Assembly (NCBI RefSeq): GCF_024281235.1
Contig: NZ_JAHWXY010000002.1
Coordinates: forward strand, 310,001-374,000
Source: Shinella daejeonensis
Lineage (GTDB): Bacteria > Pseudomonadota > Alphaproteobacteria > Rhizobiales > Rhizobiaceae
DNA length: 64,000 nucleotides
Direction of reading: 5' to 3'
In this document: in pieces, positions 4,000 to 38,214 of the stretch
Layout: the number at the start of each line of letters is the position of its first letter
Position numbering within the stretch: position 1 is the first letter of the stretch
Notes under the pieces: model-generated
Told to the model about the DNA's origin: nothing
The model's database searches: none
The model's input: only the letters and a program-made list of their open reading frames with translations
Translations under genes and position numbers: made by a program

Positions 4000-4077
4000 T
4001 TCCACGGACATCGTTTCCCGCCGGTCCCGGATCACGCCTCCAAACGTCGCCCTCCATGCCGGGGCGATGAAAGCATG

Positions 4078-4743
4078 TCAGGTGCTCTTAAGGCTTCGCT
4101 GACGCGCATGATCCCGCCCGACCGCCTCGAGCCCGCCGATGGCGAAGCTATAGAGATGATCGATCAGGGCGGCGCGCGACATACGCTGTATCTCATCCGC
4201 GAAGGGAAACGCTTTGGGCCCGATAACCAATAGCATCGCACATGGCGCCATGACACTGATCAGGCATCGGAGCAGGGCGGGATCATCGGGCGGAATCATT
4301 GCGATCTCGCTCAGGATGGAAAGAACGAACGGCAGTTTCGCCGGGATCTCGGTCTTCTGGAGCACTTGCAGGTTGGAGGTCGGAGACAGAAGCTCGCGGC
4401 TGAGCACCGTCGCGTGCCAGCCCCGATCCAGAATTGCACTTTCCACCAGCCCTTCGATCAGCCGTTTCAGCTTTTCGCGCGCCGGCAGATCGGTCGACAC
4501 CAGCCGCTGCAACGTCCCGACGCTGACAAAGCGGCGGTGCGCATCCACCAGCACGGCCTGATAGACGCCGTTGCGGCTGCCGAAATGATAATTGATCGAG
4601 GCGAGATCCACCTCCGCGCGCGCGGCGATCATCTTGTTCGTCGTTTCGGCGAAGCCTGCCGACGCGAACAGTTCTCCTGCCGCCTCCAGTATGCGGTTGT
4701 AGGTCATGTCGCCATCGGCGCGTTTGGCGCGGGTCGTCTTCAC
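4078..4743 (-). CDS. cecR: TetR-family regulator, CecR (YbiH)-like
   Basis: A TetR helix-turn-helix lies at the N-terminus (ILEAAGELFASAGF, then NKMIAARAEVDLASINYHFGS), followed by a C-terminal ligand domain of the CecR/DUF1956 type. It is divergent from a complete ybhGFSR-like efflux operon, the arrangement in which E. coli CecR represses ybhGFSR. GTG at 4743 is taken as the start because AAAGG lies 9 bases upstream; an in-frame TTG at 4764 would add seven residues. The 180-bp divergent region holds a perfect 12-bp palindrome (4868-4879), a plausible operator. The effector is unknown; in E. coli the regulon relates to cefoperazone and chloramphenicol sensitivity. Confidence 0.82.
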   Translation of the reverse strand: MKTTRAKRADGDMTYNRILEAAGELFASAGFAETTNKMIAARAEVDLASINYHFGSRNGVYQAVLVDAHRRFVSVGTLQRLVSTDLPAREKLKRLIEGLVESAILDRGWHATVLSRELLSPTSNLQVLQKTEIPAKLPFVLSILSEIAMIPPDDPALLRCLISVMAPCAMLLVIGPKAFPFADEIQRMSRAALIDHLYSFAIGGLEAVGRDHARQRSLKST

Positions 4744-4847
4744 GATCAGGAGCCTTTTCTGCAAGCTGCCGGAAGAGCGGCTGGGCCTCGGCCCTGAAGA
4801 TCATTCCCCGCGCTGGCACCCCGGCGATTTTGGTCTTTCCTTTATCA

Positions 4848-4879
4848 TTGACATAATCTAACTTCAAATTAAATTTAAT
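4848..4879 (+). promoter_or_regulatory. Promoter with palindromic operator for the ybhGFSR-like operon
   Basis: TTGACA at 4848-4853 is followed by AT-rich DNA containing the perfect palindrome ATTAAATTTAAT (4868-4879), placed where a -10 element would fall. The flanking TAATCTA occurs twice, at about 4855 and 4877. A TetR-type repressor binding here would block the operon and probably its own gene. Assignment to the CecR-like protein is by position only. Confidence 0.5.
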
Positions 4880-4924
4880 CTACCGAATGAAAAGCCGGCC
4901 CCTCCATCTCCGTGAGAAAGCTCC

Positions 4925-5914
4925 ATGAAGAAGATCCTGATGGCCGTCCTCATAGCCGCGCTCGCCGTCGGCGGCTGGTGGTGGTGGACAGGGCTGGAAA
5001 CAGCCGACACCGGTGAAATCGTGCTACAGGGCAATGTGGATATCCGGCAGGTCTCGCTTGCGTTTGACGGCAGCGGCCGCATCGTCGAGCTTCGCGCGGA
5101 GGAAGGCGACCGCGTCACGGCAGGCCAGATCATCGGCATGATCGACACCGGCATACTGGAGCTTCAGGCGCGGCACGCCGAAGCGCTGGTGGCCGCCCAA
5201 CGTCAGACCGTCCTGCGTCTTCAAAACGGCTCGCGGCCGGAAGAAGTCGCGCAGGCCCGCGCGCTGCTGGCTTCCGCCGAGGCATCCGCCGCCCGCGCAG
5301 AGCAGGACCTTGCCAGAACCAGCCGTCTTCGCAGCAGCGGCACGTCCAGCACCCAGGCCGTCGATCAGGCCCGGGCAGAAGCCGAATCCGCCCGCGCCAG
5401 TGTCGAACAGGCGCGCGCCGGGCTCGATCTGATCGAGGCCGGGCCGCGGCCCGAGGAGATCGCCGGCGCCGCGGCGGATCTCAAAGCGGCCGAAGCCAAT
5501 CTGGCGCTGCTGCATCACCAGATCGACCAGGGAACCCTGCGCGCGCCCGTCGACGCGCTCGTGCGCTCCCGGCTTCTGGAACCGGGCGATCAGGCCACGT
5601 CGCAAAGGCCGGTCTTCGCTCTCGCGCTCACCAAACCCAAATGGGTGCGCGTCTACGTGAGCGAACCCGATCTCGGCCGGATCCGGCCCGGCATGGCCGC
5701 GCAGGTCTTCACCGACAGCGATCCGGATCAGCCGATCGGCGGCAGGGTGGGTTATATTTCCGCGGTGGCCGAATTCACGCCGAAGTCCGTCCAGACCGAG
5801 GAACTGCGCACCAGCCTCGTCTACGAAGTCCGCGTCATCGTGGACGACGAAGCCGGTTCCCTCCGTCTCGGCCAACCCGTCACGGTTCGTCTGCCGGCGG
5901 ACACCACGCCATGA
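4925..5914 (+). CDS. ybhG: HlyD-family periplasmic adaptor (YbhG-like)
   Basis: The 329-residue membrane-fusion protein has one N-terminal membrane anchor (MKKILMAVLIAALAVGGWWWW), a biotinyl-lipoyl-like half (QGNVDIRQVSLAFDGSGRI), a long Ala/Arg/Glu-rich coiled-coil hairpin at about 80-190, and a beta-barrel domain (LVRSRLLEPGDQA onward). It links the ABC pump to the outer membrane. Its TGA overlaps the ATG of the ATPase gene (ATGA), so translation is coupled. Together with the next three genes it matches the E. coli ybhGFSR order exactly. Confidence 0.88.
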   Translation: MKKILMAVLIAALAVGGWWWWTGLETADTGEIVLQGNVDIRQVSLAFDGSGRIVELRAEEGDRVTAGQIIGMIDTGILELQARHAEALVAAQRQTVLRLQNGSRPEEVAQARALLASAEASAARAEQDLARTSRLRSSGTSSTQAVDQARAEAESARASVEQARAGLDLIEAGPRPEEIAGAAADLKAAEANLALLHHQIDQGTLRAPVDALVRSRLLEPGDQATSQRPVFALALTKPKWVRVYVSEPDLGRIRPGMAAQVFTDSDPDQPIGGRVGYISAVAEFTPKSVQTEELRTSLVYEVRVIVDDEAGSLRLGQPVTVRLPADTTP

Positions 5915-7680
5915 GCGATGGCGGCGCCACGATCACCGCGACCGGGTTGCGCAAGACTTTTGCAGGGCCGGACGGCCATGCGATCGCCGCCATCGACGAC
6001 ATCTCGCTTACCGTCCACCCGGGAAAGCTGACTGCGCTGGTCGGCCCTGACGGAGCCGGCAAGACGACGCTGATACGCATGATCGCCGGACTGCTGAAAC
6101 CGGATGCGGGGTCGCTTTGCGTGCTCGGCATCGATGTCGCGGCCGACCCGCAAGCGGTGCAGGACCGCATCAGCTACATGCCCCAGCGCTTCGGCCTCTA
6201 CGAGGACCTGTCGGTTCAGGAAAATCTCGACCTTTATGCCGATCTGCACGGCGTTCCGCAAAAGGAGCGCAAGGAACGTTTCGCCCGCATGCTGGAGATG
6301 ACCGACATGGCGCGTTTCACCGAACGCCCGGCCGGCAAGCTGTCGGGAGGCATGAAGCAGAAGCTCGGGCTCGCCTGCACACTCGTCCGGTCGCCCGATC
6401 TTCTGCTGCTCGACGAGCCCAGCGTCGGCGTGGATCCGCTGTCGCGGCGCGATCTTTGGAAGATCGTGCAGCAGCTCGTCGATGACGAAAAGCTCAGCGT
6501 GATCGTCAGCACGGCCTATATGGACGAAGCCGAGCGCTGCGCGCAGGTCTTTGTCATGAACAGGGGCAGGCTGCTGGCGGAAGGCCCTCCGGGCGACCTG
6601 AAGAAGCAGGCCGCCGGCCTGACCTTCACAGCTACGCCGCCAGAGGGCATGCCGGCGCGTGAACTGCAAGCCCGGCTGATCGACGCGCCAGACCTCATCA
6701 TCGATGCGGTGCCGAGAGGGGGAAGCGTCCGCTTCATCCGCCGGCCCGAGGCCGACGAGGCCCGTTTCTTCGAGCTGCTGCACGATGCGCTGGTCGAGGC
6801 GCGCCCCGAGGAGATTGAAGACGCCTTCATGATGATGCTGCGCCGGCAAGAGCGGCAGGACCGAAAGACACCGGCCGAACCCGCCGCCGCCTCCGTTGCG
6901 GCGAAACGCCGGGACAATCCGGACAAGCCCGTCATCGTCGTGCGCGATCTCGTGCGCAAGTTCGGCGACTTCACGGCCGTCGCCAGCACGTCCTTCGACG
7001 TTGCTCCCGGAGAAATCTTCGGGCTGCTCGGGCCGAACGGCGCGGGAAAGACGACCACCTTCCGCATGCTGTGCGGCCTTCTGCCCGCCACCAGCGGCCA
7101 TCTCGAAGTGGCCGGGCTCAACCTGCGCAACGCCCGCGCCGAAGCCCGCGGCCGCATCGGCTATGTTTCGCAGAAATTCGCGCTCTACGGCAATCTCTCC
7201 GTCCGCGAGAATCTGGAATTCTTCGGCGGAGCCTATGGCTTGCGGGGGAAGGCCTTGCGCACGCGCATCGCGGCGTCGCTGGAACGGTTCGACCTCGACC
7301 CCGCCATGCAAAGCGGCCTTCTTCCCGCCGGCTACAAGCAGCGGCTTGCCATGGCGACCGGCCTTTTGCACGAGCCGGACATCCTGTTCCTCGACGAGCC
7401 GACCAGCGGCATCGATCCGCTCGCCCGCCGCGCCTTCTGGCACACCATCACATCGCTCGCCGGGGATGGCGTCACCATCATCATCACCACGCACTTCATG
7501 GAGGAGGCCGAATATTGCGACCGCATCGCCATCCAGGATGCCGGCGAGATGCTTGCCCTCGGCACGCCGAGAGCGGTCAGAAAGGAGGCCGGCGATGAGG
7601 GCATGGACATGAACAACGCCTTCATCGCCATCGTCGAACAGGGCCGCGCCGCCCGCAACCGGAAGCCGTCGGCCGCATGA
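5911..7680 (+). CDS. ybhF: Double ABC ATPase (YbhF-like)
   Basis: The 589-residue protein contains two fused ABC-2-type ATPase domains. Domain 1 has Walker A GPDGAGKTT (about 45-53), signature LSGGMKQK and Walker B LLLLDEPSVGVDP. Domain 2 has Walker A GPNGAGKTTT (about 373), Walker B ILFLDEPTSGIDP and H-loop THFMEEAEYC. In domain 2 the ABC signature is degenerate (LPAGYKQR instead of LSGGQ), suggesting one non-canonical ATP site. The start was placed at the ATG overlapping the ybhG stop, although the frame is open far upstream. The gene overlaps ybhS by ATGA. It powers export of a drug-like compound or small cation in known homologues. Confidence 0.88.
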   Translation: MSDGGATITATGLRKTFAGPDGHAIAAIDDISLTVHPGKLTALVGPDGAGKTTLIRMIAGLLKPDAGSLCVLGIDVAADPQAVQDRISYMPQRFGLYEDLSVQENLDLYADLHGVPQKERKERFARMLEMTDMARFTERPAGKLSGGMKQKLGLACTLVRSPDLLLLDEPSVGVDPLSRRDLWKIVQQLVDDEKLSVIVSTAYMDEAERCAQVFVMNRGRLLAEGPPGDLKKQAAGLTFTATPPEGMPARELQARLIDAPDLIIDAVPRGGSVRFIRRPEADEARFFELLHDALVEARPEEIEDAFMMMLRRQERQDRKTPAEPAAASVAAKRRDNPDKPVIVVRDLVRKFGDFTAVASTSFDVAPGEIFGLLGPNGAGKTTTFRMLCGLLPATSGHLEVAGLNLRNARAEARGRIGYVSQKFALYGNLSVRENLEFFGGAYGLRGKALRTRIAASLERFDLDPAMQSGLLPAGYKQRLAMATGLLHEPDILFLDEPTSGIDPLARRAFWHTITSLAGDGVTIIITTHFMEEAEYCDRIAIQDAGEMLALGTPRAVRKEAGDEGMDMNNAFIAIVEQGRAARNRKPSAA

Positions 7681-8807
7681 GTGCCTCCGGCTTCACGACC
7701 CGCCTCGTCGCGCTGACCCGCAAGGAAACCCGCCAGATGCTGCGCGACCGCAGCAACCTCGTCGTCGGGCTTCTGCTGCCCGTCGTTCTCATCCTGCTGT
7801 TCGGCTACGGCCTTTCCTTCGATGTGAAGGACGCCCGCGTGACCGTGGTGCTGGAAGACAGTTCGCCCACGGCCCGCAATATCGTCGCGGGGCTGCACGG
7901 TTCGCCCTATCTCGCCCCCACATGGGAAACCTCGATGGCCGAGGCCGAGCGGATGATCCGCGCCGGCGAAACCGACGCGATCCTGCGCGTGCCCGGCGAG
8001 TTCTCGGCGCGACTGGCTGCTGGCGAGGGCGGATTGCAGCTTCTTCTCAACGGCGTCGATTCCACGACGGCTTCCGTCATCGAAGGCTATGTCGACGGCG
8101 CGCTTTCCGTACCGATGCAGCAGCAGGCCGACCGGGCCGGCAACAAGCCCGCCGGAGCGGCCAGCGTCACGATCATCCGGCGCATATGGTTCAACGAGAC
8201 CGGCGAAAGCACCTGGTTTCTGGTGCCGGGACTGATCGTGCTGGTCATGACACTGATCGGCGCGTTCCTGACCTCGCTGCTCGTCGCCCGCGAATGGGAG
8301 CGCGGCACGCTGGAATCCCTTTTCGTCACGCCGGTCAGGCCGCTGGAACTCGTGCTGTCGAAGCTCGCCCCTTACATCGTCATCGGCGGCATCGATCTCA
8401 TCTTGTGCCTGCTCGCCGCGAAATATCTGTTCCTGGTGCCGATGCGCGGCTCACTCTGGATCATCGTCGTCTCGTCGCTTCTCTACCTGCTGGTGTCGCT
8501 GGGACTGGGCCTCTTCATCTCGGCCATAACGCGCAACCAGTTCGCCGCCAGCCAGATGGCGCTGCTTGCGAGTTTCCTGCCTGCGATGATGCTGTCCGGC
8601 TTCGTCTTCGACCTGCGCAATACGCCCGTGGTCATCCAGGTGATCAGCCAGCTCCTGCCGGCGACCCACTTCATGGGGCTGATCAAAACCCTGTTCATGG
8701 CGGGCGATTACTGGCCGGACATCCTGCGGAACTGTTCCATTCTCGCATTCTACGCCATCGTGCTGATCGCGCTGACGCGCCGGTCGCTCGCCAAGAGACT
8801 GGATTGA
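7677..8807 (+). CDS. ybhS: ABC-2 type permease (YbhS-like)
   Basis: The 376-residue protein has one N-terminal transmembrane helix (LVVGLLLPVVLILLFGYGLSF), a large periplasmic domain (about 45-175), then five C-terminal helices containing AREWERGTLESLFVTPV, the ABC-2 permease signature. It forms the membrane pore with the following paralogue. The start overlaps the ATPase stop. Length and layout match E. coli YbhS. Confidence 0.87.
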   Translation: MSASGFTTRLVALTRKETRQMLRDRSNLVVGLLLPVVLILLFGYGLSFDVKDARVTVVLEDSSPTARNIVAGLHGSPYLAPTWETSMAEAERMIRAGETDAILRVPGEFSARLAAGEGGLQLLLNGVDSTTASVIEGYVDGALSVPMQQQADRAGNKPAGAASVTIIRRIWFNETGESTWFLVPGLIVLVMTLIGAFLTSLLVAREWERGTLESLFVTPVRPLELVLSKLAPYIVIGGIDLILCLLAAKYLFLVPMRGSLWIIVVSSLLYLLVSLGLGLFISAITRNQFAASQMALLASFLPAMMLSGFVFDLRNTPVVIQVISQLLPATHFMGLIKTLFMAGDYWPDILRNCSILAFYAIVLIALTRRSLAKRLD

Positions 8808-8811
8808 CGCC

Positions 8812-9924
8812 ATGGCGGGACCCGTCACCTATATCGCGCAGGTATTGTCGCTCATCCGCAAGGAGATGCTTGCGCTCGTCAAGGACCCCGCGAACCGGAC
8901 GCTGCTCTTCATGCCGGCGATCATGCAGGCGCTTTTGTTCGGCTACGGCGCAACCTACGATCTCACCCATGCGCCCTATGCCGTTCTCGACCAGAGTCGC
9001 GGAGCGGCCTCGACCGAGCTTCTGGCACGGCTCGACGGAACGGGCGTATTCGAGCGGGTTGCGACGCTCACGTCGTCCGGTCAGATCGCCGCCATGATCG
9101 ACAGCGGCGAGGCGCTTCTGGTGATCGCCCTTCCGGCGGACTTCGAGGCGCGCCTCGCCGCAGGCCGCGAGGCGCCGTTGCAGCTCATCCTCGACGGACG
9201 CAACTCCTCCACGGCCGGGCTGGCCTCGGCCTATGTCGGCGCGGTCGTTGCCGCCTACAACGGGACGCGCGGCGTCTCCACCCCGGTGACGATCGAACGC
9301 CGCGCCTGGTTCAACCCGAACCTCGAATCCCGCTGGAACATGATGCCCGCCCTCATCGCCGCGCTCAGCATGATGCAGACGCTTCTGCTGGCCGCACTCT
9401 CCGTCGCGCGTGAGCGCGAACAAGGCACGTTCGACCAATTGCTGGTGACGCCCCTGACCCCGCTTCAGATACTGATCGGAAAGGCACTGCCGTCGATGCT
9501 GGTCGGCATCTTCCAGTCGACCCTGATCTTCCTGATCATCCTGTTCTGGTTCCAGATCCCTCTGAACGGGTCCGTCTGGCTGCTCTATCTCGGCCTCGCG
9601 ATGTTTACGCTGGCCTCCGTCGGCATCGGCCTGTCGATCTCGGCGGTATCGCTGACCATGCAGCAGGCGATGCTCTACACCTTCATGCTGATCATGCCGC
9701 TAATGCTGCTGTCGGGCCTGCTGACGCCCGTACGAAACATGCCGGAAGCACTACAGGTCGCCACCTTCGTGAATCCACTCCGCTTCGGCGTAGATCTCGT
9801 ACGCCGCGTCTATCTCGAAGGCGCGACGTTTGGCGACGTGGCTTTCAACTTCGTGCCGCTCCTCGCCGTTGCCGCGGTCACCCTTCCGCTCGCCGCATGG
9901 CTGTTTCGCAATCGCCTGGCGTGA
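8812..9924 (+). CDS. ybhR: ABC-2 type permease (YbhR-like)
   Basis: The 370-residue protein is the second half-permease of the efflux pump, with the same plan as YbhS: one N-terminal helix, a periplasmic domain, and five C-terminal helices around AREREQGTFDQLLVTPL. It starts 4 bp after ybhS and closes the four-gene operon. The two permeases are paralogous and probably act as a heterodimer. No transcription terminator with a T-run is visible behind it. Confidence 0.87.
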   Translation: MAGPVTYIAQVLSLIRKEMLALVKDPANRTLLFMPAIMQALLFGYGATYDLTHAPYAVLDQSRGAASTELLARLDGTGVFERVATLTSSGQIAAMIDSGEALLVIALPADFEARLAAGREAPLQLILDGRNSSTAGLASAYVGAVVAAYNGTRGVSTPVTIERRAWFNPNLESRWNMMPALIAALSMMQTLLLAALSVAREREQGTFDQLLVTPLTPLQILIGKALPSMLVGIFQSTLIFLIILFWFQIPLNGSVWLLYLGLAMFTLASVGIGLSISAVSLTMQQAMLYTFMLIMPLMLLSGLLTPVRNMPEALQVATFVNPLRFGVDLVRRVYLEGATFGDVAFNFVPLLAVAAVTLPLAAWLFRNRLA

Positions 9925-9967
9925 CGCGCGCGCCGATCGTCGGAGGAATACGCCGGCCGAACGACCG

Positions 9968-10270
9968 CTATGCTTCGGATGCGGCCCGGGCCGGCGCATT
10001 GGATTTGAGACGCTTCATGAAATCGAGGAAATGGGAATGCAGCGGTTCAAAAAGCGGCTCGCGGCGATGGGCCATGTGAACACCGCTGAACAGCTTCAGG
10101 CCGATGGTGAATTGCGCCACCTCCTCCTCCGGCAGGACGTTCAATGCCCTGATGCGATCGATCAACGGCACGATGTCGTCATGATTGGTGACGTCGAAGG
10201 TGCAGCTGACCGGCTCGCTTCCCTCCGGAAGGTCCAGTTTCTCGGCGGTGATACGGTAGGTATAGGCCAT
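9968..10270 (-). CDS. DUF3861 family protein
   Basis: This is a small soluble protein of 100 residues beginning MAYTYRITAEKLDLPEG, recognisable as the DUF3861 family, whose function is unknown. The start at 10270 is chosen because AAGGAG lies 10 bases upstream; a longer frame begins at 10312 without a ribosome site. It is divergent from a MarR-family gene, with two palindromic sites in the 85-bp gap, so it is probably a target of that regulator. Confidence 0.72.
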   Translation of the reverse strand: MAYTYRITAEKLDLPEGSEPVSCTFDVTNHDDIVPLIDRIRALNVLPEEEVAQFTIGLKLFSGVHMAHRREPLFEPLHSHFLDFMKRLKSNAPARAASEA

Positions 10271-10292
10271 GGGCTCTCGGCTCCTTTGTTGG

Positions 10293-10333
10293 TTGATGCT
10301 ATCAATTGACATTAAACAGTTGATATAGTCAAC
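10293..10333. promoter_or_regulatory. Two palindromic operators between DUF3861 and marR
   Basis: TTGAT-GCT-ATCAA (10293-10305) and GTTGA-TATAG-TCAAC (10319-10333) are two inverted repeats in the divergent gap, of the size MarR dimers bind. Placement next to a marR gene suggests auto-repression and control of the DUF3861 gene. The first site recurs upstream of the HxlR gene at 39.7 kb. Confidence 0.55.
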
Positions 10334-10355
10334 CCATCGCTGCTACCTTCAAGCC

Positions 10356-10787
10356 ATGGATAATGAGTTGATTGATTTGTTACGCACCGTGGCGAACGGA
10401 TTCCGGGCGCGGATGCAGGCGAAAGTGGTGGCGGCCGACCCGGGTCTGACGGCGTTTCAGGCGCGCCTTGTCAACGTCATCGGGCGCAACGAAGGCGTTT
10501 CCCAGCTGGAGCTTGGTGCGTTGGTGGAGCGCGACAAGGCGCAGATCGCACGCGCAATCAAGGACCTGGAGGCGCAGGGACTGGTGACGCGCAGCGCGGA
10601 TATCGCCGACTGGCGGACGAAATGCGTCGCGCTGACCCCGGAAGGTCGACAGGCGCACACGCGCCTGAACAGCATGCGCGAGCAACTCGCAGCCGACGTG
10701 CTGGCGCGTTTTTCCAACGAGGAGAAACATGCCCTGCGATCGGGCCTTGAGAAAATGGACGCGGCACTTCGAGAGCAGGCTTCGTGA
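10356..10787 (+). CDS. MarR-family transcriptional regulator
   Basis: The 143-residue winged-helix regulator contains VSQLELGALVERDKAQIARAIKDLEAQGLVTRSADIADWRTKCVALTPEGRQ, i.e. recognition helix plus wing. It probably represses itself and the divergent DUF3861 gene through the palindromes in between. The ligand is unknown. No gene follows on the same strand within 300 bp. Confidence 0.88.
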   Translation: MDNELIDLLRTVANGFRARMQAKVVAADPGLTAFQARLVNVIGRNEGVSQLELGALVERDKAQIARAIKDLEAQGLVTRSADIADWRTKCVALTPEGRQAHTRLNSMREQLAADVLARFSNEEKHALRSGLEKMDAALREQAS

Positions 10788-11085
10788 ATGCGGATGGTTG
10801 CTTCCGGATACGCGCATCCCCGTCTCCTCAGCTCCGAAGCTCAAGCAATCCTGTCGAAACATAGTATCGAAGAACGCATGCGATCAGGCGGATCCTGCTA
10901 AAGCGGGCGGACGTCGCGGTCGCTGCTTTAGAACGCGATCGGGGCATCCGGCGATCTGGCGCGCTCGAGCCGGGTCACTGTATCTGCCATATTCATCGAG
11001 CCATGACGTAAATTTCATATTCCGTCGCCACCGTGAGGCCGGCTTCCGTAACCGCGTCTCAATGTTTGGCGCATAGCGTCGGCGC
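10788..11085. other. Intergenic region without a recognisable gene
   Basis: This is about 300 bp between the marR gene and the diguanylate cyclase. I see no credible coding frame. A loose inverted repeat (CTAAAGC near 10899 and GCTTTAG near 10924) is present but too short to call. The promoter for the downstream cyclase presumably lies in the AT-richer part around 10990-11030. Confidence 0.4.
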
Positions 11086-30878: not shown

Positions 30879-31712
30879 CTACGCCATGACGGCCGACGCC
30901 GGCATAGACGCTCCCGGCCTCTTCGCATCGAACTCCTGCGTATGAACCACCACGCCTTTTCGACCGGCGAGCACGATGCTGTAAGCGGAGGCCTCGAAGC
31001 TTATGGCGTGCGGGCCGTCAAACCGGAGAGCCGACTGGTGGCTGGTGCCGCGAACGGTCGTAAACGGAATTCCATCCCAGTTGCCGTGGCTCAGCCGGTG
31101 TACATGGCCCGCGAAAAGATGGCGCACGTTTCCGCGCGCCTTGAGAAGCACCAGCAGGGCGTCGGGATCGCTCAGCCGGCATGCGTCGAGCGAGGGGATG
31201 CCGATCGGCATCGGCGGGTGGTGCAGGAACATGAGCACGTCCGCCACGGACGCAAGCTGTTCATCGAGCCATGCCAGACGGCGGTCGCAAAGCTGCCCCG
31301 CGACGTGGCCCGGCCAGAGCGTATCAAGAAAGATGAGCCGCATCCCGCCGATATCGGCGCGGGACTGGAGGAAACCGTCGATCTCGGGCGCATCGGCGAA
31401 GACCTGCCGGAAGGCCGCACGATCGTCGTGATTGCCCAGCATCAGGCGATGCGGCGGCAGCAGGAAGCCGAGACGGTCGGCAAGCGCCGCATAGGCGTCG
31501 GCCCTGCCGTCATCGGTCAGGTCGCCGGCAAAAACCACGAGATCGGCATCGGCATGATTAGCATTGATATCGCCGATACAGGCTTCGAGACGTTCCAATG
31601 GATCGAGGCCGAACAGCGTCTCGCCGGGCGCGACGAGATGAAGATCGGAGACGATAACAAGCTTCATGACGTCGAAGGGCGCCCGCCGCCCAGGGGTCGT
31701 TTCATTCTGCAT
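30879..31712 (-). CDS. Metallophosphoesterase (CpdA/GpdQ-like phosphodiesterase)
   Basis: This 277-residue calcineurin-type hydrolase carries the whole dimetal motif set: SDLHL (D-x-H), FAGDLTDDG (GD), LGNHDD (GNHD), LHHPP and AGHVHR (GHxH). It is likely to cleave a cyclic nucleotide or glycerol-type phosphodiester in the cytosol. The ATG at 31712 lies inside the end of the LacI gene, with GGAAG 8 bases upstream; MKLVIVSDLHL at 31667 is the alternative start without a ribosome site. It is the last gene of the PHO-box ABC operon, suggesting it processes the imported compound. Confidence 0.85.
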   Translation of the reverse strand: MQNETTPGRRAPFDVMKLVIVSDLHLVAPGETLFGLDPLERLEACIGDINANHADADLVVFAGDLTDDGRADAYAALADRLGFLLPPHRLMLGNHDDRAAFRQVFADAPEIDGFLQSRADIGGMRLIFLDTLWPGHVAGQLCDRRLAWLDEQLASVADVLMFLHHPPMPIGIPSLDACRLSDPDALLVLLKARGNVRHLFAGHVHRLSHGNWDGIPFTTVRGTSHQSALRFDGPHAISFEASAYSIVLAGRKGVVVHTQEFDAKRPGASMPASAVMA

Positions 31713-32742
31713 CGTCCGGTCTTCCAAGGTGAGCGCTGTCGCGCGCGATGAATACGGATTCCAGCTGCACCGTGGAGGGAGCCGCCTCCGGATCGCTCAG
31801 CCGGCGCTCGAGTTGGCCGATCGCACGGGCGGCGATTTCCTCCGGGTCCTGCCGGAATGTGGTCAGGCGGTAGGCGTCCCAGGACGCCTCCGGGATATCG
31901 TCGAAACCGATGACCGAGAGGTCCTGCGGGATGCGGCAGCCGAAACGGCTGCGCGCGGCGTCCATGAGGCCGAGCGCCATCAGATCGTTGACGCAGAAGA
32001 TCGCCTCCGGCCGCGGTCGCAAGCCGAGAAGGACAGCCGCCGCCTCCTGCCCGCCGGCATAGTCGGTGTCGCTTCCGCGCGCGATTCGAACCGCCGCGCC
32101 CAGACGTTCCGCCGCTTCGACAAAAGCGTCCTCGCGTTCCACGATGCTCGGTGTGCCGGAGGCCGACCCGGCCACGGCAAGACGATTCATACCGCTTCGC
32201 ACGAAGATGGCGGCAGCCCTTGCGGCGGCGCGGCGATTGTCGGTGCGCACATGATCCCGATCCGCTTCGGCACGACCGATCATCACGAGCGGCTGGCCGT
32301 TTCGCCGCGCCAGTTCGGCGAAGGAAGCCGGCGGAGAGCCCGACAGGATGATCGTCGCCTCGGCGCGGTAGCCGAAGAGGGCGGCCTGTGCCGCCTGCAT
32401 CTCCTGTTCGGAACTGCCGGTGTCGATGAGGAACGGAATATTGCCGCGCCGGATGAGCGCGCGCGAGAGCGAAGCCACGAGATGCGCCCGGAATCCGACT
32501 TCCGGCTTGGTGACGACAAGGCCGACAAGACGGCTGCGATTGGCAAGCAGCCCGCGGGCAAGGTCGTTGACCTGATAGCCGAGCGTAGTCGCCGCCTCCA
32601 GAACCTTTTCACGGGTTTCCAGCGCGACGCTTGCGCCCGGCGTGAACGTGCGGGAGACCGCCGAGCGCGAAACGCCTGCCAGATCCGCCACCTGTTGCGC
32701 ACTGACGAAGCCCGGCGTCCGGGGACAGTTTCCGCGCCTCAA
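31702..32742 (-). CDS. LacI-family transcriptional regulator
   Basis: The 346-residue regulator has an N-terminal helix-turn-helix (SAQQVADLAGVSRSAVSRTFTPGASVALETREKVLEAA) and a periplasmic-binding-protein-like ligand domain (LVGLVVTKPEV, VIGFDDIPEASWDAYRLTTFRQDP). The TTG start overlaps the stop of the upstream permease gene (TTGA), so it is translated with the transporter it probably regulates. A perfect 14-bp palindrome at 36812-36825 in front of the operon is the best operator candidate. The inducer is presumably the transported compound. Confidence 0.88.
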   Translation of the reverse strand: MRRGNCPRTPGFVSAQQVADLAGVSRSAVSRTFTPGASVALETREKVLEAATTLGYQVNDLARGLLANRSRLVGLVVTKPEVGFRAHLVASLSRALIRRGNIPFLIDTGSSEQEMQAAQAALFGYRAEATIILSGSPPASFAELARRNGQPLVMIGRAEADRDHVRTDNRRAAARAAAIFVRSGMNRLAVAGSASGTPSIVEREDAFVEAAERLGAAVRIARGSDTDYAGGQEAAAVLLGLRPRPEAIFCVNDLMALGLMDAARSRFGCRIPQDLSVIGFDDIPEASWDAYRLTTFRQDPEEIAARAIGQLERRLSDPEAAPSTVQLESVFIARDSAHLGRPDDAE

Positions 32743-33581
32743 TGTCCGACCTTCGAAAGCACGTCGGACCTCAGGAAGCGCTCGACGATCAGCATGAAAG
32801 CCACGGAAGGGATGAGGAGCAGGAGCGCGGTGATCGAGGCGACCTGATAGTTTCCCCCGGCGCTGGCCGTGTAGAGCAGCAGCGGCAGCGTGTTCACATC
32901 CGGCGCGCCGATGAAATAGCTGCCCGTGAACTCATCCAGCGATTCGAGGAAGACGAAGATCGCGCTGGCCAGCAGGCCCGGCGCCGCAAGCGGCAGCGTC
33001 ACGTCGCGGAATGTACGCATGGCTCCGGCACCCATGGAGCGGGCGGCCTCCTCCAGTTCGACATCCACGGCGGAGAAGGCGGCCGTGGCGATCCACACCG
33101 CATAGACGAGCCCGTGGGTCACATGCACCAGAACGACGCCCGTCACCGTGCCGTTGAGGCCGATCTGGTAGAAGAGCCGGGCGATGTTCACATAGACGGG
33201 CAGGCTCGGAAAGGCCTGGGGAATCAGGAAAGCGAGCAGGATCAGGGCGCGGAACGGCAGTTTCAGGCGCGCCAGCGCATATCCCGCCGGCACGGCCAGC
33301 GCCATGGCGACGATCACCGTCAGCCCCGCCACGACGATGCTGTTGGCCAGCGATTCCATCGCGACGCCGCGCGGCGAGAAAACGCGCGCCCAATAGCTGA
33401 ACCCGTATTCCAGCGGCAGGGTGTGCGGGAAATACCAGCGCTCGGCAACGGTCCATAGCAGCAGGTTCATCAACGGTCCGAAAATGGCGAAGGCAAGCAG
33501 GCCGAGAATGACGGCGCGGGGGATCCACCAAAGATCCACCGTGAAGTCGGGGCGGGCGGCGGTATGAACGGCGAGGCTCAC
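32739..33581 (-). CDS. ABC permease (PotC/AfuB-like)
   Basis: The 280-residue inner-membrane permease has six helices and the EAA loop VELEEAARSMGAGAMRTFRDVTLPLAAPG that contacts the ATPase. It is of the type used for polyamines, Fe(III), thiamine or 2-aminoethylphosphonate. It overlaps the preceding permease gene by 4 bp and the following LacI gene by a shared TTGA. Confidence 0.87.
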   Translation of the reverse strand: MSLAVHTAARPDFTVDLWWIPRAVILGLLAFAIFGPLMNLLLWTVAERWYFPHTLPLEYGFSYWARVFSPRGVAMESLANSIVVAGLTVIVAMALAVPAGYALARLKLPFRALILLAFLIPQAFPSLPVYVNIARLFYQIGLNGTVTGVVLVHVTHGLVYAVWIATAAFSAVDVELEEAARSMGAGAMRTFRDVTLPLAAPGLLASAIFVFLESLDEFTGSYFIGAPDVNTLPLLLYTASAGGNYQVASITALLLLIPSVAFMLIVERFLRSDVLSKVGH

Positions 33582-34399
33582 GAGCGTTTCCTCATGCTCT
33601 GACGCAGATAGAACCAGCCGACGCAGGCGCTGGCGACAAGGGAAATCAGGCCCAGCGCATTGGCGACCCCATAGTCGCCATAGGCGTTGATGCGGAAGGC
33701 GATATCGGCGGTGATCATGGTGGGGGATTGCGCATTGATCATCAGCGGCACCGACAGCACCGACATCATGGTGACGAAGGACAGCACGAGCCCGACCATC
33801 AGCGTGGTCGCCACCTGCGGCACGACGATGCCGATGAGGATACGCAGGCGCGAGGCGCCGAGGTTACGCGCCGCCTCTATGGTGCTGCGGTCGACGGACG
33901 CCATCGCACCGGCGACGAGCATCGCCACGAAAGGCGTCTGTTTCCAGACGAAGGCGATGACGATGCCGCGCCAGTCGAGAAAACTCATGGCCTGCATGGG
34001 CGTAATCACGCCGACGCCGATCAGCACGTTGTTCATGAGCCCGTTCCGCGCAAGAAACGTGCGCAGGATCTGGCCAACCACGATGAACGGAATGAACAGC
34101 GGCCAGCGATAGAGCCAGCGCAGAAGCGCGACCGCGCGCGGATTTTCGCCAAGAACCAGATAACCGCCGATCGCGATCGACAGAAAGCCGATGATGGTCG
34201 TCGAAAGGGAAACGATGACGACGGTGAAGACGATGTCGGACGTATAAAGCTCGAAAGCCTTGATGAAATTGCCCAGTCCGTATCCGCTGCCGACCGCGAA
34301 GGCGCCGATCACGGAACTGGTCAGCGGCACCACGAACAGCAGCGCGATGACGGCAAGCGCGGGCAGGACGAGAAACAATCCGAAAAGACGTATGGGCAT
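33578..34399 (-). CDS. ABC permease (PotB/AfuB-like)
   Basis: The 273-residue protein has six transmembrane helices and an EAA loop (STIEAARNLGASRLRILIGIVVPQ). The start at MPIRLFGLFLVLP (34399) was chosen because the extra N-terminal 42 residues of the longer frame are not membrane-like and overlap the intercistronic hairpins. It pairs with the next permease. Confidence 0.86.
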   Translation of the reverse strand: MPIRLFGLFLVLPALAVIALLFVVPLTSSVIGAFAVGSGYGLGNFIKAFELYTSDIVFTVVIVSLSTTIIGFLSIAIGGYLVLGENPRAVALLRWLYRWPLFIPFIVVGQILRTFLARNGLMNNVLIGVGVITPMQAMSFLDWRGIVIAFVWKQTPFVAMLVAGAMASVDRSTIEAARNLGASRLRILIGIVVPQVATTLMVGLVLSFVTMMSVLSVPLMINAQSPTMITADIAFRINAYGDYGVANALGLISLVASACVGWFYLRQSMRKRS

Positions 34400-34435
34400 G
34401 GCATGTCCGCAGGCGCGAATGGGGACGAAGGGCGC

Positions 34436-34481
34436 GGAAGCCGCCCGTGACCGGGCGACTTCCTCGGGGCTTGAGCCGAGG
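34436..34481 (-). other. Tandem hairpins between binding-protein and permease genes
   Basis: A 12-bp stem with one mismatch (34436-34447 with 34452-34463, loop TGAC) and a second stem, CCTCGG / CCGAGG (34462-34481), directly follow the binding-protein stop. No T-run follows. This is typical of message-stabilising intercistronic structure in importer operons. Confidence 0.6.
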
Positions 34482-35618
34482 CTAGTTGGTGACGTGGCGC
34501 TCGTAGGCCTCCAGGATCGCGTCATTGTAGGGCGCGATCGGGAACGGCTTGCCGTAGCTGGCGAGATCCTCCGGCGTCACGTCGGTGAACAGCTTCGACC
34601 ATGTGGCCTCGTCAAGCTCGGACTGGACATGCTGGGCATCGATGCCCGGATACCAGTTGAAGCGCTTGACGATGCCTTCGGCCTGCACCTTCGGGCTGGT
34701 CGCCAGTTCGATGAACTTCTCGGCCAGTTCCTTGTTGGCCGCCTTGGCGGGCATCACATAGTGCATCGGCTGGCCGGGCATGCCCGGGGCCGGGAGAACC
34801 AGCTTGAATTCGGGCGGCAACTGGCCGTTGGCCTGCCAGGAATAGAACATGTCCACCCATACCGGGCCCATGGCGATCTCACCGCGCGAAAGCAGGTCGA
34901 GGGTGCCGGCGTTGCCGGGGGTCAGCGTGGCGTTTGTGGTGAAGTCCGCCAGACTGTCGAAGGCGCTGTTCCACTTGCTGGTCTCGCCTTCCTCGAACGG
35001 GCCGTTCATCAGCTTGTCGGCCTCGCCTTCGCCAAAAGCGTAGACCCAGCCCATGACGAAGCTGACGCCGGAAGCGCCGCCCTTGATGCCGTTGTAACCG
35101 AACTGCTTCGGGTTGGCCTTGGCCCATTCGGCCAGTTCCTCGTAGCTCTTCGGCGGATCTTGCAGAAGCGCCGGATTGTAGGCGAGAGCCGTCTGGCTGT
35201 TGAACATCGGCATGACGTAGCCCTTGACCGGCGAACCGAGCGCCATATCGGCGTTTGCGCGGGTCACCAGCTTTCCGGTGCTGATCCGGTCGCGATAGGC
35301 TTCGAGATATTCGCCCGTCACCATGGGGCCGACGAACTTCTCATGCACGACGGCGACATCGGCATCCCAGGCCTCGACGCCCGCCTGCTTCTGGGCCTCG
35401 AAACGCTCGACGATCTTCTGCGAGCCGGAATCGCCCGGGCCGGTGCCCACGACGCGCACCGTATTGCCCGGATTCTGCTCCTCGAAAAGAGGCCCGAGAT
35501 ATTCATTGATATAGTCGACCATGTTCTGGTCGCCCGCCGTCAGGACGGTGAGTTCCGCCGCGAAGGCCGGCTGGGCCGCAAAGCCGAGAACCAGCGTTGC
35601 CTGAAGAACTTTCTTCAT
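34482..35618 (-). CDS. Periplasmic solute-binding protein (class of AfuA/PotD/PhnS)
   Basis: The 378-residue protein has a signal peptide (MKKVLQATLVLGFAAQPAFA) and a two-lobed type II binding fold (ELTVLTAGDQNMVDYINEYL, LAYNPALLQDPPKSYEELAEW, GEIAMGPVWVDMFYSW). Relatives bind Fe(III), polyamines, thiamine, phosphonates or sugar phosphates. The PHO box of the operon and the co-encoded phosphodiesterase favour a phosphorus-containing ligand. The longer frame upstream to 36017 is an artefact overlapping the ATPase gene. Confidence 0.87.
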   Translation of the reverse strand: MKKVLQATLVLGFAAQPAFAAELTVLTAGDQNMVDYINEYLGPLFEEQNPGNTVRVVGTGPGDSGSQKIVERFEAQKQAGVEAWDADVAVVHEKFVGPMVTGEYLEAYRDRISTGKLVTRANADMALGSPVKGYVMPMFNSQTALAYNPALLQDPPKSYEELAEWAKANPKQFGYNGIKGGASGVSFVMGWVYAFGEGEADKLMNGPFEEGETSKWNSAFDSLADFTTNATLTPGNAGTLDLLSRGEIAMGPVWVDMFYSWQANGQLPPEFKLVLPAPGMPGQPMHYVMPAKAANKELAEKFIELATSPKVQAEGIVKRFNWYPGIDAQHVQSELDEATWSKLFTDVTPEDLASYGKPFPIAPYNDAILEAYERHVTN

Positions 35619-35643
35619 GGGATGACGTCTCCGTTGGGTAGGA

Positions 35644-36801
35644 TTACGCTTCTGATGTTTCCAGGACGTCGGCCTTCCGGCCGTCGTGCAGGGAACCTGT
35701 GTGCGGCCGCGTGACGTCGGCCTGCGAATGGAAAAGAAAGAGATTTCGGGCCGGGATGCGGATCCGCACCGGCTGGCCCGGCGCGAAGGGCAGCGCTGCA
35801 TCCACGAGAAGGATGTCGTCGCCGACGCGAACGGCGTGACGCCACGTCCCGCCGGGATAGCTCGCCGCTTCGACATGGCCGAAGAGTTCCAGCGCATCGG
35901 TGGTTTCCGCAGGAGGAAGGTGTCCGTCCAGAAGCTCCGCCCCCTCCGCCCGGAAGCGTATTTCGAACGGACCGTCCTGAAGCAGCCGGCCGTCGAGCGG
36001 CAGCACCGCCCGCGCATTCGTGCTGCCCGCCTCGATCACGATCCTCGCGTTCCGCAGCGCACCGGGAAGCGTCAGCATATTCTCGGCACCCATGAAGGCG
36101 GCGACGAAGGGCGAGGACGGCCGGTTGAAAACCTCTTCCGGTGCGCCCTGCTGGGCGATGCCTCCGGCATTCATGATGACGATGCGATCGGCCATCACCA
36201 TGGCCTCCTCGCGGTCGTGGGTGACGTGTACGGCGGTTATGCCGAGACGCTTCTGAAGGGCGCTGATATCGTGCCGGACCTTGAGGCGGATCCGTGCGTC
36301 CAGATTGGACAGCGGTTCGTCCAGAAGCAGGATCGCCGGATCGACGGCCAATGCACGGCCGAGCGCGACGCGCTGGCGCTGTCCGCCCGAAAGGGCGGCG
36401 GGCTTGCGCTGGCCGAGACCCGCCAGGCCGAGAAGTTCCTGCAATTCATCGACGCGGCGCACGATGTCGGCGCGCGCCATGCCGCGCAGCCTGGGGCCGT
36501 AACCGATATTCTGCGCCACCGTCATATGCGGCCACAGCGCGTAGGACTGGAAGACCAGCGCCATGCCACGCTTGTCGGGCGGCAGCCGGGAAACATCGCG
36601 GCCGTCGACCCGGATGCTGCCGGCCGATGGTTTGACGAAGCCTGCGATCGCCCGCAGCAGAGTGGTCTTACCGCAACCGGACGATCCGAGAAGAGCCACG
36701 AATTCGCCCTGGCGGATGGACAGGTCCAGCGCATTCAGCACCGGCGTCCGGCCATAGCCAACCGTAATGCCCTCGATGCCGAGAAAGCCGTTCTTGCTCA
36801 T
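35644..36801 (-). CDS. ABC ATPase (PotA/FbpC/UgpC-like)
   Basis: The 385-residue ATPase has Walker A GSSGCGKTTLLRAI, signature ALSGGQRQRVALGRALA, Walker B AILLLDEPLSNLDA and H-loop THDREEAM, plus a C-terminal TOBE/regulatory domain of about 140 residues. It is the first gene of a six-gene operon: ATPase, binding protein, two permeases, LacI regulator, metallophosphoesterase. A PHO-box-like site and a palindrome lie upstream. Confidence 0.88.
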   Translation of the reverse strand: MSKNGFLGIEGITVGYGRTPVLNALDLSIRQGEFVALLGSSGCGKTTLLRAIAGFVKPSAGSIRVDGRDVSRLPPDKRGMALVFQSYALWPHMTVAQNIGYGPRLRGMARADIVRRVDELQELLGLAGLGQRKPAALSGGQRQRVALGRALAVDPAILLLDEPLSNLDARIRLKVRHDISALQKRLGITAVHVTHDREEAMVMADRIVIMNAGGIAQQGAPEEVFNRPSSPFVAAFMGAENMLTLPGALRNARIVIEAGSTNARAVLPLDGRLLQDGPFEIRFRAEGAELLDGHLPPAETTDALELFGHVEAASYPGGTWRHAVRVGDDILLVDAALPFAPGQPVRIRIPARNLFLFHSQADVTRPHTGSLHDGRKADVLETSEA

Positions 36802-36811
36802 TTTCTACCCT

Positions 36812-36825
36812 TGCACAGCTGTGCA
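36812..36825 (-). promoter_or_regulatory. Palindromic operator of the phosphodiesterase ABC operon
   Basis: TGCACAGCTGTGCA is a perfect 14-bp palindrome 11 bp before the ATG of the first gene. It is the best candidate site for the LacI-family regulator encoded in the same operon, downstream of the PHO-box promoter, hence a roadblock-type operator. Confidence 0.5.
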
Positions 36826-36874
36826 TCGACGGTTCCAGCACCGTCTTTCCGGCAATGAGCATTAAGCGGCTTTC

Positions 36875-36892
36875 ATAACGGCGGGATGACAG
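36875..36892 (-). promoter_or_regulatory. PHO box upstream of the phosphodiesterase ABC operon
   Basis: On the minus strand: CTGTCAT-CCCG-CCGTTAT. The first half-site is perfect and the second matches 5 of 7, with standard 4-base spacing. CTTAAT (36866-36861), 8 bases on, is a reasonable -10. The ATPase start is 73 bp downstream of the box. Confidence 0.6.
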
Positions 36893-36895
36893 ACT

Positions 36896-37375
36896 TCAGC
36901 CGTCACCGCGCCGCGCCGCCTCAATGGCGGCCACATCGATTTTCTTCATGGTCATCATCGCTTCAAACGCGCGCCTGGCCTCCTCACCGCCGACCGCCAA
37001 CGCCTCGGTGAGCACGCGCGGCGTGATCTGCCAGGAGATGCCCCATCTGTCCTTGCACCAGCCGCACACACTTTCCTGCCCGCCATTGCCGACGATGGCG
37101 TTCCAGTAACGGTCGGTTTCCTCCTGATCGTCGGTGGCGATCTGGAACGAGAAGGCTTCGCTATGCCGGAAGGTCGGCCCGCCATTGAGACCGAGACAAG
37201 GGACGCCTGCCACCGTGAATTCGACCGTCAGCACGTCGCCCTTCTTGCCCGAGGGGAAATCGGCGGGCGCACGGCGGACGGCGGTGACGGTGCTGTCGGG
37301 AAAAATCCCGGCATAAAAGCGGGCGGCGGCTTCGGCCTCCCTGTCGTACCAGATGCAGATCGTGTTTTTCGCCAT
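36896..37375 (-). CDS. VOC-family protein, PhnB-like
   Basis: The 159-residue single-VOC protein starts MAKNTICIWYDREAEAAARFYAGIFPDS and has the PhnB/3-demethylubiquinone-methyltransferase-like features (FRHSEAFSFQI, ETDRYWNAI, CGWCKDRWGISWQITP). It has no methyltransferase domain despite the old family name. A GAGGAG ribosome site marks the start at 37375. It is the last gene of a four-gene minus-strand operon divergent from an HxlR regulator. The function is unknown. Confidence 0.85.
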   Translation of the reverse strand: MAKNTICIWYDREAEAAARFYAGIFPDSTVTAVRRAPADFPSGKKGDVLTVEFTVAGVPCLGLNGGPTFRHSEAFSFQIATDDQEETDRYWNAIVGNGGQESVCGWCKDRWGISWQITPRVLTEALAVGGEEARRAFEAMMTMKKIDVAAIEAARRGDG

Positions 37376-37416
37376 CACGGGCTCCTCTCGCTTCGAGGCT
37401 ATGGTTTGACGCCGGT

Positions 37417-38214
37417 TCACATCTTGCCGCCGACCACCGCGAACCATGCGCCCTGCGGGTCCTGCGCCACCGCGATATAGGCCGGGCCGGGAACCTCCAT
37501 CGGACCATGATGAACCTTGCCTCCCGCCGCGGTGATGGCCTCCACGGTTTTCGTCACCGCGCCGTCGACACCGAAATAGGCAAGCCAGGCCGAGGCCGGT
37601 GCATTACCGAGACCCATCACCGCCCCGATATCGACGTCCTTATGGCGGAACAGCTGGTAGGTTCCCATGTCGCCCATGTCCATGGCCTCGCCCTTCGTCC
37701 AGCCGAACAGCCCGGAATAGAAGGCGAAGCCGGCCTGGGGATCGCTCGACATCAATTCGTTCCAGTTGCCGTGACCGGCTTTTTTCTGGTTGAAAGCACC
37801 CTCCCCCGCTTCAGCCCTGGCGCGATCGGCCTCGCTCATCCGGCTCATATCGGGTTGCAGCAGGCCGAAGACCGCCCCCTGAGGGTCCGCGACGACCGCA
37901 AAGCGACCGGTATCGGGAATGTCGGCCGGCGCCTTGTAGACTCTGCCGCCGGCCGCTTCGACATCGGCAACGGTCCGGTCGCAGTCATCCACGGCGAAAT
38001 AGATCAGCCAGTGGGGCGGCGGGTTTCCCGTCTGGCCGGCGCTGGACATCATTCCGGCCACCATGTCGCCATCGGATTTGGCGAGCCGATAATCGAAACC
38101 CTCCATTCCGCTATCTGCGATCCGCCAGCCGAAAATCCCGGCATAGAAGTCGCTCGCGGCCTCGAGATCGCCGGTTCCCAATTCGTACCAGCACGGATTG
38201 CCATGATACTTCAT
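37417..38214 (-). CDS. Double VOC-domain protein (Cfp30B-like)
   Basis: The 264-residue protein has two glyoxalase-like modules (HGNPCWYELGTGDLEAASDFYAGIFGW and NWNELMSSDPQAGFAFYSGLFGW). It resembles the mycobacterial 27-kDa antigen Cfp30B family, of unknown reaction. The start at 38214 has AGGAGAAGG just upstream; an earlier ATG at 38229 lies inside that ribosome site. Confidence 0.85.
   Translation of the reverse strand: MKYHGNPCWYELGTGDLEAASDFYAGIFGWRIADSGMEGFDYRLAKSDGDMVAGMMSSAGQTGNPPPHWLIYFAVDDCDRTVADVEAAGGRVYKAPADIPDTGRFAVVADPQGAVFGLLQPDMSRMSEADRARAEAGEGAFNQKKAGHGNWNELMSSDPQAGFAFYSGLFGWTKGEAMDMGDMGTYQLFRHKDVDIGAVMGLGNAPASAWLAYFGVDGAVTKTVEAITAAGGKVHHGPMEVPGPAYIAVAQDPQGAWFAVVGGKM

Follow-up and report, generated by a model that had tools for sequence, protein, structure and literature searches.

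The subject of this report is a six-gene operon of Shinella daejeonensis, contained in a 64,000-nucleotide stretch of DNA (contig NZ_JAHWXY010000002.1, positions 310,001 to 374,000; hereafter, the window), which probably encodes an ATP-binding cassette (ABC) importer of a small phosphodiester, controlled by PhoB and by a LacI-family regulator. An earlier note on this DNA had described a PHO-box-like site, a palindrome and six co-directional genes here, and all were found in place on the minus strand, arranged as follows.

36875..36892, minus strand: PHO box, CTGTCAT-CCCG-CCGTTAT, 12/14 consensus positions (motif match, kept in relatives)
36859..36864, minus strand: predicted -10 hexamer, TAATGC, 10 nt past the PHO box (sequence, and TA spacing in relatives)
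36811..36826, no strand assigned: predicted LacI operator, the 16-mer ATGCACAGCTGTGCAA, holding the perfect 14-bp palindrome TGCACAGCTGTGCA at 36812-36825 (kept with linked LacI)
35644..36801, minus strand: ABC importer ATPase, PhnT2/UgpC/PotA-like, 385 amino acids (Pfam ABC_tran, NCBIfam)
34482..35618, minus strand: periplasmic solute-binding protein, SBP_bac_8/1, 378 amino acids (Pfam; structural model with a predicted local distance difference test score, pLDDT, of 85.8; Foldseek top match 4r6y)
33578..34399, minus strand: permease 1 (Pfam BPD_transp_1)
32739..33581, minus strand: permease 2 (Pfam BPD_transp_1)
31702..32742, minus strand: LacI-family regulator, 346 amino acids, TTG start (Pfam LacI/Peripla_BP_3)
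30879..31667, minus strand: class III metallophosphoesterase, SpdA/Rv0805-like, 262 amino acids (Pfam Metallophos, motif set)

Along the operon, successive genes are separated by 25 nt and 82 nt, overlap by 4 nt at each of the next two junctions and are again separated, by 34 nt, at the last. The 94 bp between the ATPase start and the upstream gene (36896-37447, 3-dmu-9_3-mt family) hold the PHO box, the -10-like TAATGC and the palindrome, which stops 10 nt ahead of the ATPase start codon. Downstream, the operon faces a convergent DUF2794 gene.

Relatives of the operon were collected by scanning genome contigs with six binding proteins, yielding 527 stretches encoding a relative, of which the best 80 were kept (L039-L118). 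These, together with five plasmid loci and 27 hand-picked regions, the latter selected mostly for distance, make up the 112 loci considered below. The selection of L039-L118 by rank lets close kin dominate the counts; L110 and L149 are moreover identical in sequence. The promoter counts cover 111 upstream regions: the window was included, whereas L043 and L165, lacking the ATPase start or sufficient upstream sequence, were not.

PhoB boxes are described in the relevant passages of PMC3131613 as two CTGTCAT-like 7-mers lying 4 bp apart, with an A/T-rich 4-nt spacer. Upstream regions were accordingly scored for matches, out of 14, to CTGTCAT-N4-CTGTCAT on the gene strand and within 300 bp of the ATPase start. 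The window box, on the operon strand, comprises two such 7-mers (12/14). Its exact 18-mer occurs once in the S. daejeonensis genome, where 17 sites (two of them overlapping) lie within two mismatches of the consensus, as compared to 4 for the reversed motif. As a check on its proposal of PhoB control, the earlier note had called for a box at the orthologous operons of relatives. Such a box, scoring at least 11/14, was indeed present upstream of 67/111 operons and of 44 of the 80 that are non-redundant. At the same threshold, those 80 regions gave 7% with antisense sites, 3% with the reversed motif and 0.7% with dinucleotide shuffles.

In PhoB promoters, a -10 element lies approximately 10 bp past the box. 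Considering non-redundant sites, window included, TA was found exactly 10 nt past the box in 38/44 sites scoring at least 11/14 and in 50/58 scoring at least 10/14, as compared to none of eight reversed-motif sites and a background of 2.3%. Position by position, 39 of the 44 have T and 40 have A at 10-11 nt past the box, columns that played no part in choosing the sites. The S. daejeonensis genome also encodes PhoB (346 bits vs. a family cut-off of 296.2), adjoining PhoU. With box and TA conserved at the spacing of PhoB promoters and the regulator at hand, the proposal of PhoB control was supported at the sequence level.

The second promoter element follows the regulator gene. A match to TTGCACAGCTGTGCAA with no more than two changes (at least 14/16) was found upstream in 80/85 loci having a window-type LacI gene inside the operon (window included), in 3/16 loci in which no LacI gene was found and in 0/10 loci having a different, distant or divergent LacI gene. 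In Klebsiella and on the E. coli plasmid, TGAACACGTGTTCA takes the place of TTGCACAGCTGTGCAA. In the S. daejeonensis genome, the copy at the operon is the best match to the operator motif (1 mismatch), with the next best showing 2 mismatches. At up to three mismatches, the 16-mer is not enriched in this genome (7 places vs. 10 per strand for the reversed control) and, as it is no commoner than that control, the palindrome by itself would prove little. Decisive evidence that these sites exceed chance comes from relatives, in which the box, the -10 spacing and the palindrome are conserved. Conservation of an operator together with a linked gene is the pattern expected of a local regulator and its predicted operator, such that the LacI control suggested by the earlier note likewise finds support. 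As such, regulation of the operon by both PhoB and LacI is well supported in silico, and we infer that PhoB binds the box and that LacI, responding to an effector, binds the palindrome.

The last gene of the operon encodes an enzyme of a recognizable phosphodiesterase family. Class III enzymes carry the motif D-(X)n-GD-(X)n-GNH[E/D]-(X)n-H-(X)n-GHXH, as set out in the motif description of PMC4222275. The window metallophosphoesterase holds the full set (SDLH, AGD, GNHDD, HHPP and GHVH) and so belongs to this class. A cytoplasmic location is assumed, as the first catalytic motif stands at the very start of the protein. Its nearest NCBIfam family is SpdA (NF050112), the 2',3'-cyclic nucleotide phosphodiesterase of Sinorhizobium meliloti, which has the same motif set (PMC4222275, enzyme description). 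The score of 249.9 bits, like the 252.1 bits of a Phyllobacterium relative, falls far below the equivalog cut-off of 400 bits. Among PDB sequences, the window enzyme matched Rv0805 (5.6e-27) and the phosphohydrolase 2dxl (1.2e-26). In the assays described in PMC4222275, SpdA is active on 2',3'-cyclic nucleoside monophosphates (2',3'-cNMP) and hardly on the 3',5'-forms, while Rv0805 also prefers 2',3'-cNMP. SpdA differs from the window enzyme in its setting, lying at the cyaD1 locus and not being known from an importer operon.

When the corresponding position was considered across the 112 loci, it was found to be occupied by a metallophosphoesterase in 36, by a 2H-type cyclic phosphodiesterase (CPDase) in 33 and by a metallo-beta-lactamase (MBL) fold protein in 5, with none of the three in 38, the latter label meaning that, around the binding-protein gene (-3.6 to +6.2 kb), the enzyme queries gave no tblastn match. 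The enzyme gene is found after LacI or beside permease 2, lies on the operon strand and no more than 200 nt from the preceding gene in 66/74 cases, and is divergent in 5/74. The CPDase-like proteins (cluster median, 173 amino acids) carry paired HxT/S motifs 77 residues apart in 24/24 cluster members, and one representative matched PF07823 (39.1 bits; cut-off 21) and the Arabidopsis cyclic phosphodiesterase 1fsi (E 5.7e-8). In a simple motif test, 32/33 CPDase loci passed; the failures were L175 (CPDase) and L041 (metallophosphoesterase). The MBL proteins bear the annotation ribonuclease Z in L007, L008 and L010; their matches to models of RNase Z, cyclic-nucleotide phosphodiesterase and Apyc1, and in L010 also of PhnP, were weak and below cut-off. 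A gene of the inositol-monophosphatase family is linked in 19/112 loci, either by itself or together with an enzyme of any of the three types.

The occupants have been exchanged repeatedly. A quick tree of the binding proteins, whose terminal branches are long, shows 19 changes of enzyme label, and its well-supported branches require a minimum of three changes for the CPDase, six for the metallophosphoesterase and three for the MBL protein. The recruitment of unrelated enzymes to one place beside one pump suggests that they perform one reaction. Seven loci, all on one side of a tree branch with support of 87, present a PhoD-like open reading frame (ORF) upstream. In L103, this ORF and a HAD-family neighbor were confirmed by Pfam, and a HAD ORF was seen in 4/7 of the PhoD loci. 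The notion that all loci labeled as having none of the three enzymes are enzyme-free was rejected, given these seven and L039, where a second importer and a metallophosphoesterase lie downstream.

Several of the loci contain further genes of interest. In Limoniibacter (L039, 12955-18176), the second importer cluster begins right after LacI and ends in its own metallophosphoesterase (35% identity to that of the window), showing that the pairing of pump and phosphodiesterase recurs. In L066 (1893-3798, minus strand), a different metallophosphoesterase (33% identity to that of the window) is encoded immediately after another ATPase gene. In L041 (13697-14215), the metallophosphoesterase frame stops after 173 codons, lacking GHxH, with large unannotated ORFs after it. 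Adjoining the operon in L046 (12969-17027, minus strand) is a gene for a 1352-residue autotransporter with a weak, below-cut-off endonuclease/exonuclease/phosphatase domain, possibly an exported phosphodiesterase that feeds the pump. In Azospirillum (L010, 10544-12916, minus strand), the operon has two convergent genes beside it, for a class III aminotransferase and for a phosphotransferase, which together might act on an amino-alcohol phosphate.

The transporter itself fits no named family. Among the matches listed, no NCBIfam family reached its curated cut-off for any operon protein, including PhnT/PhnU, PhnT2/PhnU2, UgpC/UgpA/UgpE and PotA-C, for which the equivalog cut-offs were not attained. 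For the ATPase and permease 2, the best 25 families were listed. Staying below cut-off throughout, the transporter parts lean to PhnT2/PhnU2, UgpC, PotA and ModB, with PhnT2 being the top model of the ATPase (336.9 bits vs. 457.7) and PhnU2 that of permease 2 (76.5 bits vs. 593.25). The predicted structure of the binding protein (pLDDT 85.8) found as its top Foldseek match 4r6y, a putative 2-aminoethylphosphonate-binding protein. In VIA-align, plain sugar binders ranked level with phosphonate binders. Reading the ligand from PDB sequence matches was also tried and abandoned, as this returned just weak maltodextrin-type matches and one weak match to 4r6y. Several sources give the binding protein the name of YnjBCD, an uncharacterized transporter, yet the match to PRK11622 reached 51.2 bits against a cut-off of 203. 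The operon represents an importer family without a name, likely with an organophosphate substrate.

Relative to PhnSTUV and PhnT2-PhnU2, importers of 2-aminoethylphosphonate, and to AfuABC, a sugar-phosphate importer, the window proteins score below the NCBIfam cut-offs listed and the window operon differs in containing a LacI gene and a phosphodiesterase. Ugp, the glycerol-3-phosphate/glycerophosphodiester system, exemplifies Pho-regulated organophosphate import by an ABC transporter. The window ATPase scored 320.8 bits against UgpC (cut-off 432), and the cleavage enzyme of the window is not of the GlpQ/UgpQ kind.

Taken together, these results support, with a probability of roughly 60%, a PhoB- and LacI-controlled importer of a small phosphodiester, be it a cyclic phosphate or another, glycerophosphodiesters excepted. 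At phosphate shortage, PhoB would switch the operon on and LacI would release it by derepression. The ABC importer would then take up a small phosphodiester, and the phosphodiesterase would likely cleave the imported ester in the cytoplasm to give usable phosphorus. As far as is known, the hydrolysis of vicinal cyclic phosphates is common to the three enzyme folds. From this shared reaction and the inositol-monophosphatase partner, a vicinal (five-membered) cyclic phosphate emerges as the best single guess for the substrate, albeit at less than even odds, with acyclic glycerophosphodiesters close behind; another small phosphodiester outside the glycerophosphodiesters seems rather unlikely. Cyclic phosphodiesterase activity is reported for 2H enzymes. 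The favored cyclic candidates are 2',3'-cNMP, inositol 1,2-cyclic phosphate and glycerol 1,2-cyclic phosphate, of which the first could arise from RNA decay and the second from lipid decay. We tentatively envisage a dedicated inner-membrane importer for intact vicinal cyclic phosphates, which would add a phosphorus-scavenging route beside Pst, Ugp and Phn. Inside the cell, the cyclic ester would be opened to the monoester by one of three unrelated phosphodiesterases, depending on which the lineage has recruited. The monoester could then be dephosphorylated by the inositol-monophosphatase-family enzyme that is linked in some relatives, albeit not in the window operon.

Acyclic substrates deserve consideration here. 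Were the substrate a glycerophosphodiester such as glycerophosphoinositol, the enzyme would be a GpdQ-like glycerophosphodiesterase, and the inositol-monophosphatase-family partner would suit this substrate. The window enzyme also matches the phosphohydrolase entries 2dxl/2zo9 at approximately 1e-26, a protein that we take to be GpdQ, and an ORF near the distant locus L160 reads, in translation, as a glycerophosphodiester phosphodiesterase. The 2H fold is not known to act on glycerophosphodiesters. It fills the enzyme position in 33/112 loci and is linked with cyclic or 2'-5' phosphodiesters, leaving the acyclic reading somewhat unlikely. A phosphonate importer of the 2-aminoethylphosphonate class, in which the phosphodiesterase would take part in a C-P-lyase-like side step, could account for PhnT2 and PhnU2 being the top models of the ATPase and permease 2 and for 4r6y heading the Foldseek matches. 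Those models were matched below their curated cut-offs, however, and no phosphonate-cleaving gene was recognized among the neighbors viewed, a partial view rather than a full census, making such an importer highly improbable. Hence, of the phosphodiester or phosphonate substrate that the earlier note had proposed, the former is favored by the three unrelated phosphodiesterase folds in the same position and the latter is disfavored. Finally, the pump might import a phosphorus-free sugar or polyol under LacI control, the enzyme then being an unrelated passenger, a cyclic-nucleotide phosphodiesterase that trims cAMP signals. LacI regulators respond mostly to sugars (PMC4052901), the VIA-align ranking places plain sugar binders level with phosphonate binders, and the Klebsiella and Stappia loci are without a good PHO box. 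Set against the conserved box and -10 spacing and the repeated recruitment of phosphorus-ester enzymes, this explanation is improbable.

A number of observations weigh against import of a small phosphodiester under dual control. As concerns the promoter, the window spacer, CCCG, departs from the A/T-rich spacer of the published consensus; in the relatives, G/C outnumbers A/T in the spacers, so that an A/T-rich spacer seems not to be required here. TA also lies at 10 nt in 5/13 antisense sites scoring at least 10/14 and in 5/6 scoring at least 11/14. The latter six are from Phyllobacterium (four), Ancylobacter (one) and Aquibium (one, without TA) and, because another ABC gene sits divergently in the Phyllobacterium and Ancylobacter loci, the antisense boxes with TA probably belong to that neighbor. 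The box scores no more than 9/14 in the enterobacterial loci L007 and L008 (Klebsiella and the E. coli plasmid), in Stappia and in four Microvirga representatives; phosphate control is thus not universal. The operator, for its part, is missing at the 10 loci with a distant LacI gene and at 13/16 loci without one. As for the enzymes, 38/112 loci have none of the three in reach, seven of these carrying the PhoD-like ORF instead and 31 showing neither, and the window operon itself has no inositol-monophosphatase gene. According to the section of the SpdA paper on substrate range, moreover, that of class III enzymes is not readable from sequence (PMC4222275). Nor does the predicted fold of the binding protein reveal the ligand, with phosphonate, sugar-phosphate, polyamine and sugar binders being tied.

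New in this importer family would be an exchangeable phosphodiesterase and a promoter architecture predicted to combine PhoB and LacI control. No description of the operon was found in that part of the published literature reached by the search, and the words 'phosphodiesterase' and 'phosphonate' are both absent from the main text of the RegPrecise LacI paper, which was consulted for this LacI group. If import of a small phosphodiester is correct, a function would be assigned to an unnamed transporter family, soil bacteria would have an added route for using phosphodiesters, and the loci would provide a natural collection of enzymes that catalyze one reaction without being homologous. Given the repeated exchange of enzymes beside a constant pump, the substrate is directly testable.

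The family ranges across Hyphomicrobiales, other Alphaproteobacteria and Klebsiella-type enterobacteria. In the genomes sampled, the binding protein was detected in 26/297 at the level of the order (E <= 1e-60), in 14/289 at that of the class and in 6/398 at that of the phylum (both E <= 1e-100), counts that each include the S. daejeonensis genome and come from samples with further overlaps. A single cluster, which bears the name of Klebsiella variicola, represents 3251 sequences. By megablast, the Klebsiella gene was found in 1/5426 E. coli genomes, on a plasmid. In that plasmid (L007, NZ_CP023144.1), of the conjugative IncK2/Z type, the operon spans 4071-10950 and the LacI gene appears in two tblastn pieces.

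PHO-box-like sites were also seen before other genes. In Phyllobacterium (L011, 4601-5575, minus strand, and the region upstream), a divergent ABC importer comprising a binding protein and an iron-type permease is faced by the PHO-box-like GTGTCATCGAACCGTTAT, with TA at 10 nt. In the S. daejeonensis genome, three overlapping PHO-box repeats (C11:337672-337700; L120/L121) lie between two ORFs, one resembling an NAD synthetase and the other, which is divergent, a membrane sulfatase, and a further PHO-box-like site (C11:610210; L124) lies 53 nt ahead of another periplasmic-binding-protein-like ORF, these ORFs being named from their translations.

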